Source of the DNA: Slackia sp.
GTDB taxonomy: Bacteria; Actinomycetota; Coriobacteriia; Anaerosomatales; Anaerosomataceae
Length of the DNA stretch: 64,000 nucleotides
NCBI GenBank assembly: GCA_020725885.1
Contig: DYEA01000014.1
Location: 1-64,000 of the forward strand
Reading direction: 5' to 3'
Position numbers and translations under genes: made by a program. Below the pieces are notes generated by a model that searched no databases, was not told where the DNA came from, and saw only the letters and a program-made list of their open reading frames with translations. This document shows, in pieces, positions 8,799 to 13,469 of the stretch. Numbering within the stretch: the first letter of the stretch is position 1; each line of letters starts with the position of its first letter.

Positions 8799-10259
8799 AT
8801 GACGCGCATCCCGCGCTGCATGAGCACCCAGCATCCCGACAACGCCTCGGTCCCGTTCTTCGCCTCGTCGCAAGTCCTCGCCGGCGAAGACGAGATCCGC
8901 GAGGCCTACTACGCGTACTCGCACCTGGGCTGCGACGAGCAGATGTGGGACGTCGAGGGCAAGGAGATCGACTCGTTCGTCGTCAAGAAGCTCTTGAGCT
9001 ACTTCGAGCCGTACTTCCGCACGCACACGCTCGGGGAAGAGGTGCGCCTCACGCTGCGCGTCCCGAACCCCGCCGTCGAAACGGCCGAGGCGAAGGTGCT
9101 TCTCGAGACGCTGGAGAGCATCCCGCGCTCGTACGACGCGGCGCGGCTGTTCTACGGACGCGACGTCGCGCCGATCTTCGAGGTCATCTTGCCGATGACG
9201 ACCTCTACGGCCGAGGTCGACCGCATCTTCCGTTACTACGCCGACTTCATCGTCGGCCGCCAGCACCAGCCGGTACGGCCCGGAGACGTCACCGTCGCGG
9301 AGTGGGTCGGACCCACCGCGCCGGAGCGCATCGAGGTCATCCCGCTGTTCGAGGACGTCGAGGGCATGTTCCGCGCAGCCGACGTCGTCGAGGAATACCT
9401 GCGCGACAAAGACGTCGCAGACCAGCGGGTGTTCCTCGCACGCTCGGACACCGCGATGAACTACGGGCTCGTGGCCGCTGCGCTCGCCAACAAGGTCGCG
9501 TTGCAGCGGCTCGCGGCGCTGTCTGAGCGCATCGGGGTGGGCATCCACCCGATCCTCGGCATGGGCTCGGCGCCGTTCCGCGGCGGGCTTCGGCCCGACA
9601 CCGCCGAGCGGGTGGGCAGGGAGTACCCGAGCGTCGTGACGTTCACGATCCAGTCGGCGTTCAAATACGACTTCCCGCCTGAGGAGGTGCAACGCGCGGT
9701 CGCGCACCTCAAGTCCCGCGAGATCGGCGCTCCGACGCCCATCGACGAGGAGCGCGTCCGCGACCTCATCGAACGCTACAGCGCGGCGTACCGCGAGCAG
9801 GTGACCGCGCTCGCACCGGCCATCAACCGCGCCGCGGCGTTCGTGCCGCGCAGACGCGCCCGCAAGCTCCACGTGGGGCTGTTCGGCTACGCGCGGCAGA
9901 TGGGAGCCGTCACGCTGCCGCGCGCCATCTCGTTCACCTGCGCCGGCTACTCGCTCGGCGCGCCGCCCGAGCTCCTCGGCATGGACGCGCTCACGGACGA
10001 AGACCTGCGGTTCGTGCGGGAGGCGTACCCGTCGTTCGACGCGAAGGTCGCGGAGGCTCTCGCGCACGCCGACTTGGGTTCGCCCTACTTCCCCGAGCCG
10101 ATCCGGCGGGCGCTCGTCCGCGCAGGCTATGACGTCGAGCCTGACGCCGCGCACCTCGAGCTCGTACGCCGCATCCGCGAGGCGCTCGCGGCCGGCCAAG
10201 ACGCGATGGTCCATGACCTCGTGCTGCAGGCGGCGCTCGCTCGGCGCTTCCTCGGGTGA
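8799..10259 (+). CDS. ppcA: phosphoenolpyruvate carboxylase, archaeal type
   Basis: A 486-residue protein recognised as the short, archaeal-type PEP carboxylase, which makes oxaloacetate from PEP and bicarbonate. The start MTRIPRCMSTQHPDNASVP is the family signature, and the length is about half that of the bacterial enzyme. Further blocks are DVEGKEIDSFVVKKL, LFEDVEGMF and the glycine-rich GMGSAPFRGGL. A strong AAGGAGGTC ribosome site fixes ATG 8799. Its role is anaplerotic supply of the TCA half-cycle. It is followed by a B12-binding protein after 53 bases on the same strand. The archaeal type is uncommon in bacteria but does occur in some anaerobes. Confidence 0.93.
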   Translation: MTRIPRCMSTQHPDNASVPFFASSQVLAGEDEIREAYYAYSHLGCDEQMWDVEGKEIDSFVVKKLLSYFEPYFRTHTLGEEVRLTLRVPNPAVETAEAKVLLETLESIPRSYDAARLFYGRDVAPIFEVILPMTTSTAEVDRIFRYYADFIVGRQHQPVRPGDVTVAEWVGPTAPERIEVIPLFEDVEGMFRAADVVEEYLRDKDVADQRVFLARSDTAMNYGLVAAALANKVALQRLAALSERIGVGIHPILGMGSAPFRGGLRPDTAERVGREYPSVVTFTIQSAFKYDFPPEEVQRAVAHLKSREIGAPTPIDEERVRDLIERYSAAYREQVTALAPAINRAAAFVPRRRARKLHVGLFGYARQMGAVTLPRAISFTCAGYSLGAPPELLGMDALTDEDLRFVREAYPSFDAKVAEALAHADLGSPYFPEPIRRALVRAGYDVEPDAAHLELVRRIREALAAGQDAMVHDLVLQAALARRFLG

Positions 10260-10312: not shown

Positions 10313-10963
10313 ATGGACGACAACGCGGACCGCGCGGCCGTCGCGCGAGACCTGATGAAGGAGATCGACCGCCGCATCGGCGCCTACGACCGCGCTGGCG
10401 CCGTCGAGGCTGCGCTCCGGGCCGCCCGCGAGGGCGTCGTGAGCGTGCCCGAGCTGCACACACTCGTGCTCGCGCCCCTCATGGCGCTCGTCGGAGCGCG
10501 GTGGCAGGCAGGCGAGACCGAAGTCTGGCAGGAGCACCACGCGACGGGGATCGTCCGCACGATCGTCGAGTCCTTGGCGCCGCTCGTGCACGAGCAGGCT
10601 GCCCAGGTTCCACGCAACGGACGCACGGCCGTGCTCGCCTGCCCGCCGGAGGAGATGCACGACCTGGGGCTGCGGATGCTGCTCGACAGGTTCTTGCTGG
10701 CGGGCTGGAACGCGCACTTCCTCGGCGCCGACGTGCCCCAGGAGGAGATCGCGCTCGCCGTCCGAGCCCTTGAGGCCGACCTGCTCGTGCTCTCTGCGGC
10801 AACCCACTACCACCGGCTTCGGCTGCGCGCGCTCGTCGACGGGCTGCGCCAGGCTGCGCCCGGGCTGCGCGTCCTTGTCACCGGCTCGGCGTTCGCGCAC
10901 GGCCACGACGGCTGGGCAGACGACGAGGTGCTGGCGCCGGCCACGGACCTCCAGGAGCTGTGA
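10313..10963 (+). CDS. stand-alone cobalamin-binding protein with CarH-like adenosylcobalamin pocket
   Basis: A 216-residue protein made of a four-helix bundle (about 1-95) and a B12-binding Rossmann domain (about 103-216). The lower-ligand histidine is H116 in EMHDLG, followed by FLGADVP as in corrinoid and CarH-type domains. The helical part contains W64-x9-E74-H75, with V71 between them. This is the W-x9-EH pattern that caps the 5'-deoxyadenosyl group in CarH/LitR photoreceptors. The histidine that follows the tryptophan in CarH is Q65 here. No MerR DNA-binding domain is present. ATG 10313 follows GGGGG. It lies six bases before an ABC permease gene, suggesting co-transcription. It could instead be a methyltransferase-type corrinoid protein. 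Confidence 0.82.
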   Translation: MDDNADRAAVARDLMKEIDRRIGAYDRAGAVEAALRAAREGVVSVPELHTLVLAPLMALVGARWQAGETEVWQEHHATGIVRTIVESLAPLVHEQAAQVPRNGRTAVLACPPEEMHDLGLRMLLDRFLLAGWNAHFLGADVPQEEIALAVRALEADLLVLSAATHYHRLRLRALVDGLRQAAPGLRVLVTGSAFAHGHDGWADDEVLAPATDLQEL

Positions 10964-10969
10964 GCGGAG

Positions 10970-12109
10970 ATGCTGCCGCTCAAGATCGCGCTCAGGTTCC
11001 TGAAGACCTCGCCCGTGCAGTCCGCGCTCATCGCCGCGGGCATCTCCGTCGGTATCGCCACGCAAGTCTTCGTGGGGTCGCTGATCACGAGCCTCCAGGC
11101 GTCGCTCGTCGAGCAGACCATCGGCTCGACGCCGCACGTCACCATCCAGGCGCAGGAAGAGGGCGAGCCGGTCCGGATCGACGACCGGGTCTGGCGCGTC
11201 GTGAGAGAAGACGCGCGGATCGAGCCCGGCGCTGCGGTGGCGGTCCGCGTGACCAACGCGCTCGCGAGCGACGGCGAGCAAAGCGCGACGCTCCTGCTCA
11301 AAGGCGGCGACCTCGACGGCCTGGATGCGATCTACCGGCTTCGCGAGCGCGCCGTCTCAGGCACGCCGCGCCTGCGCTCCGACGACATCGTCATCGGCAC
11401 GGCGCTCGCGAAGAAGTTCTCGTTGGCGCCAGGCGACCCGCTCGCGCTCTCGCTTCCTGACGGCTCGCGCCGGACGCTCCGGGTCGCCGCGATCGTCGAC
11501 CTGGGGTCGGAGGCTGCCAACGAGCGGCAGGCGTTCGTGAACGCCGGGCTGCCGCGCTCGGTGCTCCGCTGGCGCGCGGACGAGTTCACCGCGCTTGAGG
11601 TGCAGCTGCTCGAGCCGTTCGATTCGGCGGCGGTAGCCGAGGACTGGCGGCGCCGCTTGCGGGAAACGAGCGTCGTCGAGTGGCAGGGCCAGAACGCCGA
11701 CCTGCTCACAGCGTTGCAGAGCCAGTCGTCGTCCTCGTACATGATCCAAGCGTTCGTGCTCGTCGCGGTCGCGCTCGGCATCGCAAGCACGCTCGCGATC
11801 TCCGCGGTGCAGAAGACGCGGCAGATCGGCATCCTCAAGGCGATGGGCATGGGCGATCGCCAAGCGAGCCGCATCTTCCTGTGGCAGGCGGCGGTGCTCG
11901 GGCTCGCAGGGACTGCGGGCGGCGTCGGGCTCGGCTTCCTGCTGCTGTGGGGGTTCTCGTTCGCGCCGGTGCAGTTCTCGATCTCGCCGGAGCCGACCTT
12001 CATCGCGCTTTCGGCGAGCATCGGCATCACTGTCTCGATGGCGTCCAGCATCATCCCGGCGAGGCGGACGAGCCGCGTCGACCCGATCGAGGTGATCCAG
12101 GGTGGCTGA
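10970..12109 (+). CDS. ABC transporter permease, FtsX/MacB/LolC family
   Basis: A 379-residue permease with the four-helix MacB/LolC topology. TM1 lies at about 18-40; a large extracytoplasmic domain fills about 45-250; TM2 to TM4 lie at about 255-280, 300-330 and 345-367. The segment KTRQIGILKAMGMGDRQ and the tail RRTSRVDPIEVIQGG are typical of the FtsX-like domain. Such transporters extrude lipoproteins, peptides or drugs, or act as mechanotransmitters. It overlaps the ATPase gene by 8 bases. No periplasmic adaptor gene is adjacent. Confidence 0.88.
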   Translation: MLPLKIALRFLKTSPVQSALIAAGISVGIATQVFVGSLITSLQASLVEQTIGSTPHVTIQAQEEGEPVRIDDRVWRVVREDARIEPGAAVAVRVTNALASDGEQSATLLLKGGDLDGLDAIYRLRERAVSGTPRLRSDDIVIGTALAKKFSLAPGDPLALSLPDGSRRTLRVAAIVDLGSEAANERQAFVNAGLPRSVLRWRADEFTALEVQLLEPFDSAAVAEDWRRRLRETSVVEWQGQNADLLTALQSQSSSSYMIQAFVLVAVALGIASTLAISAVQKTRQIGILKAMGMGDRQASRIFLWQAAVLGLAGTAGGVGLGFLLLWGFSFAPVQFSISPEPTFIALSASIGITVSMASSIIPARRTSRVDPIEVIQGG

Positions 12110-12836
12110 GACGGGGATCGGGCCAGCCTCCCGGCCGCTCGTCGAGGCGGTCGGGCTGACGCGCGTCTACGGCGAGGGCGAGACGGCGACCGTCGCCGTC
12201 GATGGCGCGACCTTCGCGATCGCCGAAGGCGAGTTCCTCGCGCTCATCGGACAGTCGGGCTCAGGCAAGTCCACGCTGCTCAACATGCTCGGCTTGCTCG
12301 ACACGCCGACGGCGGGCTCGCTGCGCTACCAAGGCGACGGCGTGAGCGGCCTGCCCAAGGCCGAGCGAGCGCAGCTGCGAAACCAGCTCATCGGCTTCGT
12401 CTTCCAGTTCCACCACCTGCTGCCGGAGTTCACCGTGCTCGAGAACGTGCTCATGCCGGCGCTCGTCGCGGGCGCCAGGCCGGCCGAGGTGCGAGACAGG
12501 GCCATCGAGACGCTCGAGCTGCTGGGCATCGTCGGGCTCGAAGACAAGAACGCCAACCAGCTCTCCGGCGGCCAGAAGCAGCGCGTGGCGATCGCGCGCG
12601 CCTTGCTCAACCGGCCGGCGATCGTGCTCGCCGACGAGCCGACGGGCAACCTGGACACGACGAACACGGAAGCGGTCTACGACCTCTTCCGCACCATCAA
12701 CCGCGAGCTGGGCACGGCGTTCCTCATCGTGACGCACGACCGCTCGGTCGCACAGCGCACCGACCGCATCATCGAGATCCGCGACGGCAAGATCATCGGC
12801 GACGTGCGCAACGAGTACCTGACCGGCGGATCCTGA
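12102..12836 (+). CDS. ABC transporter ATPase, MacB/LolD family
   Basis: A 244-residue ATPase partner of the preceding permease. Walker A is GQSGSGKS, the Q-loop region is FVFQFHHLLPEFTVLENV, the signature LSGGQKQR, Walker B IVLADEPTGNLD and the switch histidine lies in THDRS. This pattern is diagnostic of the LolD/MacB/FtsE group. Translation starts at GTG 12102, inside the permease reading frame, indicating coupling. It is the last gene of the ppcA, B12 protein and ABC run. Confidence 0.93.
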   Translation: MAETGIGPASRPLVEAVGLTRVYGEGETATVAVDGATFAIAEGEFLALIGQSGSGKSTLLNMLGLLDTPTAGSLRYQGDGVSGLPKAERAQLRNQLIGFVFQFHHLLPEFTVLENVLMPALVAGARPAEVRDRAIETLELLGIVGLEDKNANQLSGGQKQRVAIARALLNRPAIVLADEPTGNLDTTNTEAVYDLFRTINRELGTAFLIVTHDRSVAQRTDRIIEIRDGKIIGDVRNEYLTGGS

Positions 12837-12953: not shown

Positions 12954-13469
12954 ATGCCATCTCTTCCCCGGCGCTTCGCTCTGGTCGCGCACTGCCTGCT
13001 CGACCCGTTGGCCAAGGTCCGCGGCATCACCAACAGCGATGACGGCGTACAGACGGTGGCCGCACTGATCGGCGAGGGCGTCGCGCTGGTCCAGCTTCCC
13101 TGCCCCGAAATCACCTATCTCGGCGCTCGCCGCTGGGGAATGACGTACGAGCAGTACGACGTGCCGGCATTCCGCAAGCACTGCCGGGACCTGCTGCAGC
13201 CGATCGTCGACACCGTCGCTGCGCTGATCGACGGTGGCGCCGTCATAGACCGCCTCGTCGGCATCGACGGCAGCCCGAGCTGCGGCGTCTCGAAGACCTG
13301 CCGGGGCTACTCCGGCGGTGAGCCGGAAGCGGTTTACGGGGCGACTGAAACCGCCCAGCACGCGCAGATCTCAGCAGGGCCGGGCGTGTTCGTCGAAGTG
13401 CTGCTCGACATGCTCAGAGAGCGAGGCGTCGAACCTCCCATCTCCGGAGTCCCAGAGGATTCTCTGTGA
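12954..13469 (+). CDS. TudS/DUF523-related putative desulfidase
   Basis: A 171-residue protein resembling the TudS-related (DUF523-like) desulfidases, which use a 4Fe-4S cluster held by three cysteines to remove sulfur from a substrate. Candidate ligands are C14 (VAHCLLDP), C50 (QLPCPE) and C110 (IDGSPSCGVS); C77 and C116 are extra. The start at ATG 12954 follows AAGGAG. It opens an operon with an amino-acid-type ABC importer, so it may process an imported sulfur compound (inference). The substrate is unknown. Confidence 0.75.
   Translation: MPSLPRRFALVAHCLLDPLAKVRGITNSDDGVQTVAALIGEGVALVQLPCPEITYLGARRWGMTYEQYDVPAFRKHCRDLLQPIVDTVAALIDGGAVIDRLVGIDGSPSCGVSKTCRGYSGGEPEAVYGATETAQHAQISAGPGVFVEVLLDMLRERGVEPPISGVPEDSL

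Follow-up and report, generated by a model that had tools for sequence, protein, structure and literature searches.

Slackia sp. encodes a predicted stand-alone B12-binding protein which we assign to the light-responsive domains of the CarH/photocobilin type and not to the methyltransferase corrinoid proteins, on the grounds of sequence comparison, a high-confidence structure model and a phylogenetic tree. Its gene opens a conserved unit and is immediately followed by the genes of a type VII ABC transporter. The unit lies in the window, by which we mean the whole stretch of 64,000 nucleotides that was analysed, from a genome assembly of 1.83 Mb. In our judgement there is an even chance that this cobalamin-binding domain (CBD) serves as a dedicated cytoplasmic, cobalamin-state-sensing regulatory partner of the transporter. 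The features of the unit are listed in Table 1.

Table 1. Genes of the unit in the window and signature residues of its B12-binding protein.
Feature	Position	Strand	Description	Basis
B12-binding protein gene	10313..10963	+	Stand-alone CarH/photocobilin-type, predicted helical bundle and Rossmann fold; gene heads the unit	
G61-A-R-W64-Q65	10493..10507	+	GxxW signature covering the upper (adenosyl) face; Q65 aligns with His132 of CarH	alignment
V71-W72-Q73-E74-H75	10523..10537	+	EH signature and transporter-clade-specific W72	alignment
H116 in E114-x-H-D-L-G	10658..10660	+	Predicted lower axial Co ligand	
G138-A-D-V-P142	10724..10738	+	GxxxP signature	alignment
Permease, LolCE/MacB-type (type VII ABC)	10970..12109	+	MacB_PCD and FtsX; model matches LolE best	Pfam, structure model
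LolD-like ABC ATPase	12102..12836	+	Walker A GQSGSGKST, LSGGQ and Walker B LADEP, all intact	

The first gene encodes a protein of 216 aa, in which the Pfam families B12-binding (E 6.4e-14) and B12-binding_2 (E 1.7e-8) both matched above their cut-offs; thus, the B12 motif is not a chance match. A preliminary description of this gene had placed W64, Q65, V71, E74, H75 and H116 in the protein, with a W-x9-EH spacing, and had counted six bases before the permease gene. These positions agree with the sequence, where the stop ends at 10963 and the permease ATG stands at 10970. The Pfam domain search confirmed that the MerR DNA-binding domain is missing, and detected only the CBD in the 216 aa, with no further domain. 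The central proposal of that description, a CarH-type adenosylcobalamin (AdoCbl) pocket in a stand-alone protein, gained support from sequence scores, the tree and the structure model. When structure prediction and alignment were run, placement among the methyltransferase corrinoid subunits did not result.

The top NCBIfam match of the protein was CarH at 45 bits, below the cut-off (400 for NF052513), and the methyltransferase corrinoid families reached at most 28 bits. Among PDB sequences, the best matches were CtMerR (E 1.6e-21), the photocobilins (5e-9) and CarH (8.5e-8), while methyltransferase-type sequences gave E 1e-4 or worse and AerR matched weakly (E 0.023). An AlphaFold2 model built on a 23-sequence alignment had a mean pLDDT of 94.8 and a pTM of 0.90. 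Its top match in VIA-align was the photocobilin SasPcob (Z 24.3, rmsd 2.0 over 200 residues), and AbDPcob (22.7), CtMerR (20.9), CarH (20.3), MetH (19.8), AerR (18.3) and MttC (15.6) had lower Z values. In a maximum-likelihood tree of 75 domains, the window's CBD was split from MetH and the 220-aa corrinoid proteins (support 100/97) and from the MerR/CarH-type proteins (99/95), and grouped with the photoglobin/photocobilin-type CBDs (95/91). All transporter-linked CBDs formed one clade (99/97).

The pocket residues of CarH (W131, V138, E141, H142 and H177) align with W64, V71, E74, H75 and H116. The 23 aligned orthologues show no variation at G61, W64, W72, E74, H75, P111, E114, H116, G138 and P142 and hardly any at V71, and H116 is kept in 89/89 transporter-linked homologues. 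The light-response signature published for CBDs with SignatureFinder comprises GxxW, EH, GxxH and GxxxP (PMC11796333). The window's protein contains GARW, EH and GADVP, and its motif at H116 reads EEMH, with Glu at the Gly of GxxH. Likewise, the Anaerosomatales clade keeps GxxW, EH and GxxxP, and its lower-ligand His stands mostly in ExH, not GxxH. W72, T83 and E86 are specific to the clade, being found in 85-99% of transporter-linked CBDs and in 0% of 39 outgroup CBDs, a sequence pattern which suggests a dedicated interface.

Residue 65 varies among the orthologues (Q in 23, S in 3, K, H and A in 2 each, R in 1). At this position, which is His132 in CarH, SasPcob has Gln, CtMerR has Arg and AbDPcob has Tyr, and all three photolyse AdoCbl under green light (PMC11796333). 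The H132A variant of TtCarH still bound and photolysed AdoCbl, but remained largely tetrameric (PMC10442372). The absence of the bis-His residue had been taken earlier as a sign of an altered or missing light response. Since the light-responsive SasPcob has Gln there, Q65 is no anomaly and no argument against light chemistry.

The genome of the window encodes a BtuR/CobO-type adenosyltransferase, and we found no PduO-type adenosyltransferase in it. Together with the invariant adenosyl-facing residues, the BtuR/CobO enzyme makes AdoCbl a plausible ligand. A search of the same genome for CarH found none at E <= 1e-30. We also observed a 355-aa protein with a phycobilisome-type globin and a B12-binding domain (G000:C15:105254-105802; L068:7826-8893), a photoglobin/photocobilin candidate whose gene sits just upstream of a GatC/GatA/GatB-like gene set.

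Compared with known B12 photoreceptors, the photocobilins and photoglobins (SasPcob, 8J2W; AbDPcob, 8J2Y) have the nearest fold, their CBDs are sister sequences of the window's CBD, and SasPcob shares the Gln of Q65. Unlike them, the window's protein has no bilin-binding globin-like domain in the Pfam domain search, carries W72, T83 and E86, and is linked to an ABC transporter, whereas their partners are GGDEF or kinase domains. With the MerR-family photoreceptors CarH and CtMerR it shares the W/V/E/H residues of the AdoCbl pocket and the lower His, but it lacks both the MerR domain and His132. AerR of Rhodobacter capsulatus is also a stand-alone B12-binding protein without a DNA-binding domain. 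However, the similarity to AerR is weak, no CrtJ/PpsR gene was recognised alongside, and the N-terminal His that is the upper Co ligand in AerR (LAerR) is absent from the window's protein, where the first His is H49.

The two genes behind the CBD encode a permease and an ATPase, and the end of the first overlaps the beginning of the second by 8 bp. The permease model (pLDDT 82.8, pTM 0.63) matched LolE (Z 32.1), a non-canonical ABC transporter of Streptococcus (23.6), MacB (21.2) and HrtBA (19.5), the last being a type VII heme exporter of the MacB type. A LolE-type permease fold with a LolD-like ATPase resembles LolCDE and LolDF. Neither protein reached the curated NCBIfam cut-offs for LolCDE (117 bits vs 362 for the permease; 258-260 vs 308-360 for the ATPase). 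LolCDE has a LolC/LolE heterodimer, whereas a single permease gene is present here and the system is accessory, not universal; in MacAB the ATPase of MacB is fused to the permease, whereas here the two are separate genes. Because the LolCDE cut-offs failed, only one permease gene is present and half of the relatives lack the system, we regard it as a type VII accessory transporter and not as LolCDE. Type VII machines use cytoplasmic ATP hydrolysis to do work outside the membrane (PMC5985334). Searches of open-access PMC papers turned up no description of a MacB/Lol-type transporter with a B12-binding partner, be it LolCDE/LolDF, MacB, YknXYZ or HrtBA.

To the preliminary description the transporter was an unexpected partner, but our neighbour survey showed that it is a conserved one across three phyla. 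In this survey, genes were called with a simple ORF caller; many of the genomes are MAGs, and record titles may be mislabelled. Within Anaerosomatales, 34 orthologues of the CBD (41-71% identity, from many families) have a member of the same permease family as the next gene, in the same orientation, and then one of the same ATPase family where the contig reaches, while the genes upstream are unrelated or variable. In almost every one of these units, CBD and permease are separated by about -8 to +6 bp. A contig scan located the arrangement at L083-L116; L103 and L117 are cut by a contig end, and in genome G068 the contig ends inside the permease. The closest named relative with the unit is Coriobacteriaceae bacterium EMTCatB1, and the other named carriers include an Anaerosomatales MAG; judged by these neighbours, the window's genome probably belongs to the order Anaerosomatales of Coriobacteriia. 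No CBD-permease fusion was seen among the surveyed loci, and no relatives of the unit were found in viral contigs. Four plasmid matches were inspected and proved to be photoglobin-length CBD proteins, not the three-gene unit.

To describe co-occurrence, we counted both genes in 71 genomes. Permease and CBD occur together in 35 genomes, the permease without the CBD in two (G065 and G069), the CBD without the permease in none, and neither in 34, including two of the same genus (Fisher p 3e-18, a descriptive value that ignores kinship). Permease-ATPase pairs without an adjoining B12 gene were found at G065:C30, at G069:C7 and as a second copy in G037 (G037:C175), and these three pairs indicate that the transporter can exist alone. 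In tree distances, the CBD follows the permease with a correlation close to that between permease and ATPase (r 0.83 vs 0.74, and 0.64 vs 0.67). Two neighbouring genes were observed beside the unit in the window. An archaeal-type PEP carboxylase gene (PEPcase_2, E 9e-181; 8799-10259) lies directly upstream, only here and in a sister genome. A putative desulfidase gene related to TudS (CD3072 family, above the NCBIfam cut-off; 12954-13469) lies downstream. We judged the latter coincidental and not a member of the unit, as its occurrence is confined to two sister genomes, and what stands there elsewhere is a different protein, chiefly in two clostridia.

The CBD-permease-ATPase trio was also found in Clostridiaceae and Tissierellaceae MAGs, in a Mesoaciditoga MAG and in Athalassotoga saccharophila NAS-01. 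A profile search identified stand-alone high-scoring CBDs in 21/103 Thermotogota, in many Tissierellales and in some other Clostridia. The permease adjoins at the 20 Thermotogota loci fetched, and the whole trio is present at these and at most of the Clostridia/Tissierellales loci. Across Bacillota such CBDs are rare, with matches at E <= 1e-40 in 9/398 genomes, some of them photoglobin-length frames; the photoglobin-length CBD proteins examined (300-390 aa) have no such permease alongside. In most Thermotogota and Clostridia units, the reading frames overlap at their ends, CBD and permease by 4 bp and permease and ATPase by 8 bp. In Tissierellales a gene for an HlyD/MacA-like adaptor often lies directly upstream of the B12 gene (L119 and most of L209-L222), which results in four-gene units.

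With the loss of W64 in the Thermotogota/Clostridia branch, the ligand of these CBDs may be a form other than AdoCbl; EH, the lower His and GxxxP are kept in 55/55 sequences. In the segment aligned to residues 58-71 of the window's protein, near the predicted upper face of Co, these CBDs (L164-L183, L184-L199 and L209-L230) have two cysteines in 38 cases, none in 17 and never one. Cysteine occurs in this segment in 0/39 outgroup CBDs and 1/34 Anaerosomatales CBDs. Judged from the alignment, this all-or-none cysteine pair hints at a possible redox function in this branch. The B12 gene of A. saccharophila NAS-01 (L165, contig ~1508321-1508926; L124:4959-5489) has one in-frame TAA in a complete genome, and its frame is intact in two close relatives; the TAA may be recoded, reflect a sequencing error or mark a broken copy.

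Co-inheritance, tight gene coupling and the clade-specific W72, T83 and E86 are together best explained by a dedicated regulatory partner, although conservation of the operon would also fit a role in a shared pathway without contact. In the mechanism we propose, the CBD would bind AdoCbl base-off/His-on, with H116 below Co and W64, V71, E74 and H75 around the adenosyl group. The state read out would be the presence of AdoCbl as against loss of the Co-C bond through depletion, oxidation or light. This state may change the conformation or oligomer of the CBD, which in turn would switch the ATPase or permease through a presumed contact, in a direction of control that could be either. The transporter would then act mechanically on a substrate outside the cytoplasm, in the manner of MacB/LolCDE-type machines. 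The natural signal is more likely AdoCbl availability or redox state than light. More tentatively, the unit may define an undescribed class of ABC transporters set by a cobalamin-sensing subunit, in which one branch would read AdoCbl through a CarH-like pocket and the Thermotogota/Clostridia branch would read redox through the cysteine pair at the upper face of Co.

A light-gated transporter, in which green light photolyses CBD-bound AdoCbl and the loss of adenosine switches transport on or off, for example in protection against photo-oxidation, would agree with much of the pocket: the Anaerosomatales CBDs keep three of the published light motifs (GxxW, EH and GxxxP), photocobilins (Z 24.3) and CtMerR/CarH are the closest in fold, Gln at position 65 is shared with SasPcob, and the genome also encodes the phycobilisome-type globin and B12 protein. 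We nevertheless consider this reading unlikely. Both cultured Anaerosomatales come from the subsurface and are obligate anaerobes (PMC9686372), EMTCatB1 comes from a thermophilic biocathode (PMC7943316), and completion of the CarH photocycle requires O2 (PMC10442372). A. saccharophila is an anaerobic thermoacidophile (PMC7163026). With carriers that are for the most part anaerobes, and with an operon that persists without W64 in the Thermotogota/Clostridia part of the clade, light sensing by this CBD family in nature is doubtful. B12 binding beside a transporter might more simply point to the substrate, with the transporter moving or extracting corrinoids or another tetrapyrrole and the CBD as a cytoplasmic cobamide carrier or chaperone, and the match of the permease model to HrtBA (Z 19.5) offers a type VII precedent for tetrapyrroles. 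But the permease is far closer to LolE (Z 32), type VII machines work on extracytoplasmic substrates, and the conserved adenosyl-capping residues suit sensing more than carriage. Moreover, neither the window, where Rfam matched tRNAs only, nor 40 homologous loci showed a cobalamin riboswitch or another Rfam element near the unit, and none of the recurring neighbours was recognised as a gene for corrinoid synthesis or uptake, which makes corrinoid handling quite improbable.

AerR, a stand-alone B12-binding co-regulator of CrtJ (PMC9144470), provides a model in which the CBD would act in trans on a transcription factor and control its own operon without touching the transporter. We give this little credence, because no regulator gene recurs beside the unit in the neighbour survey, AerR is only weakly related in sequence and fold (E 0.023; Z 18.3), and across phyla the CBD follows the transporter and not a regulator. 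It is barely conceivable that the protein is a methyltransferase corrinoid subunit sitting by chance before a transporter. The B12-binding and B12-binding_2 domains are common to both groups and weak MtgC and pyl_corrinoid matches were obtained, but the tree keeps the protein apart from MetH and the 220-aa corrinoid proteins. In addition, no methyltransferase gene was noticed beside the window's B12 gene or among the recurring neighbours, and the DxHxxG motif of methyltransferase subunits and MetH is altered by E114, its first position being E in 89/89 transporter-linked CBDs vs D in 12/12 methyltransferase-type domains.

B12 domains are familiar in two settings, as modules of enzymes and in sensors whose output is transcription, GGDEF activity or a kinase. 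If the CBD is a regulatory partner of the type VII ABC transporter with which it is so consistently paired, membrane transport would join the processes controlled by B12. The carriers belong largely to anaerobic lineages, in which a light switch dependent on O2 is unlikely to be the main role of the sensor. The three genes of the unit and their natural variants, with W64 kept or lost and the cysteine pair present or absent, may offer a way to ask what CarH-type domains sense besides light.
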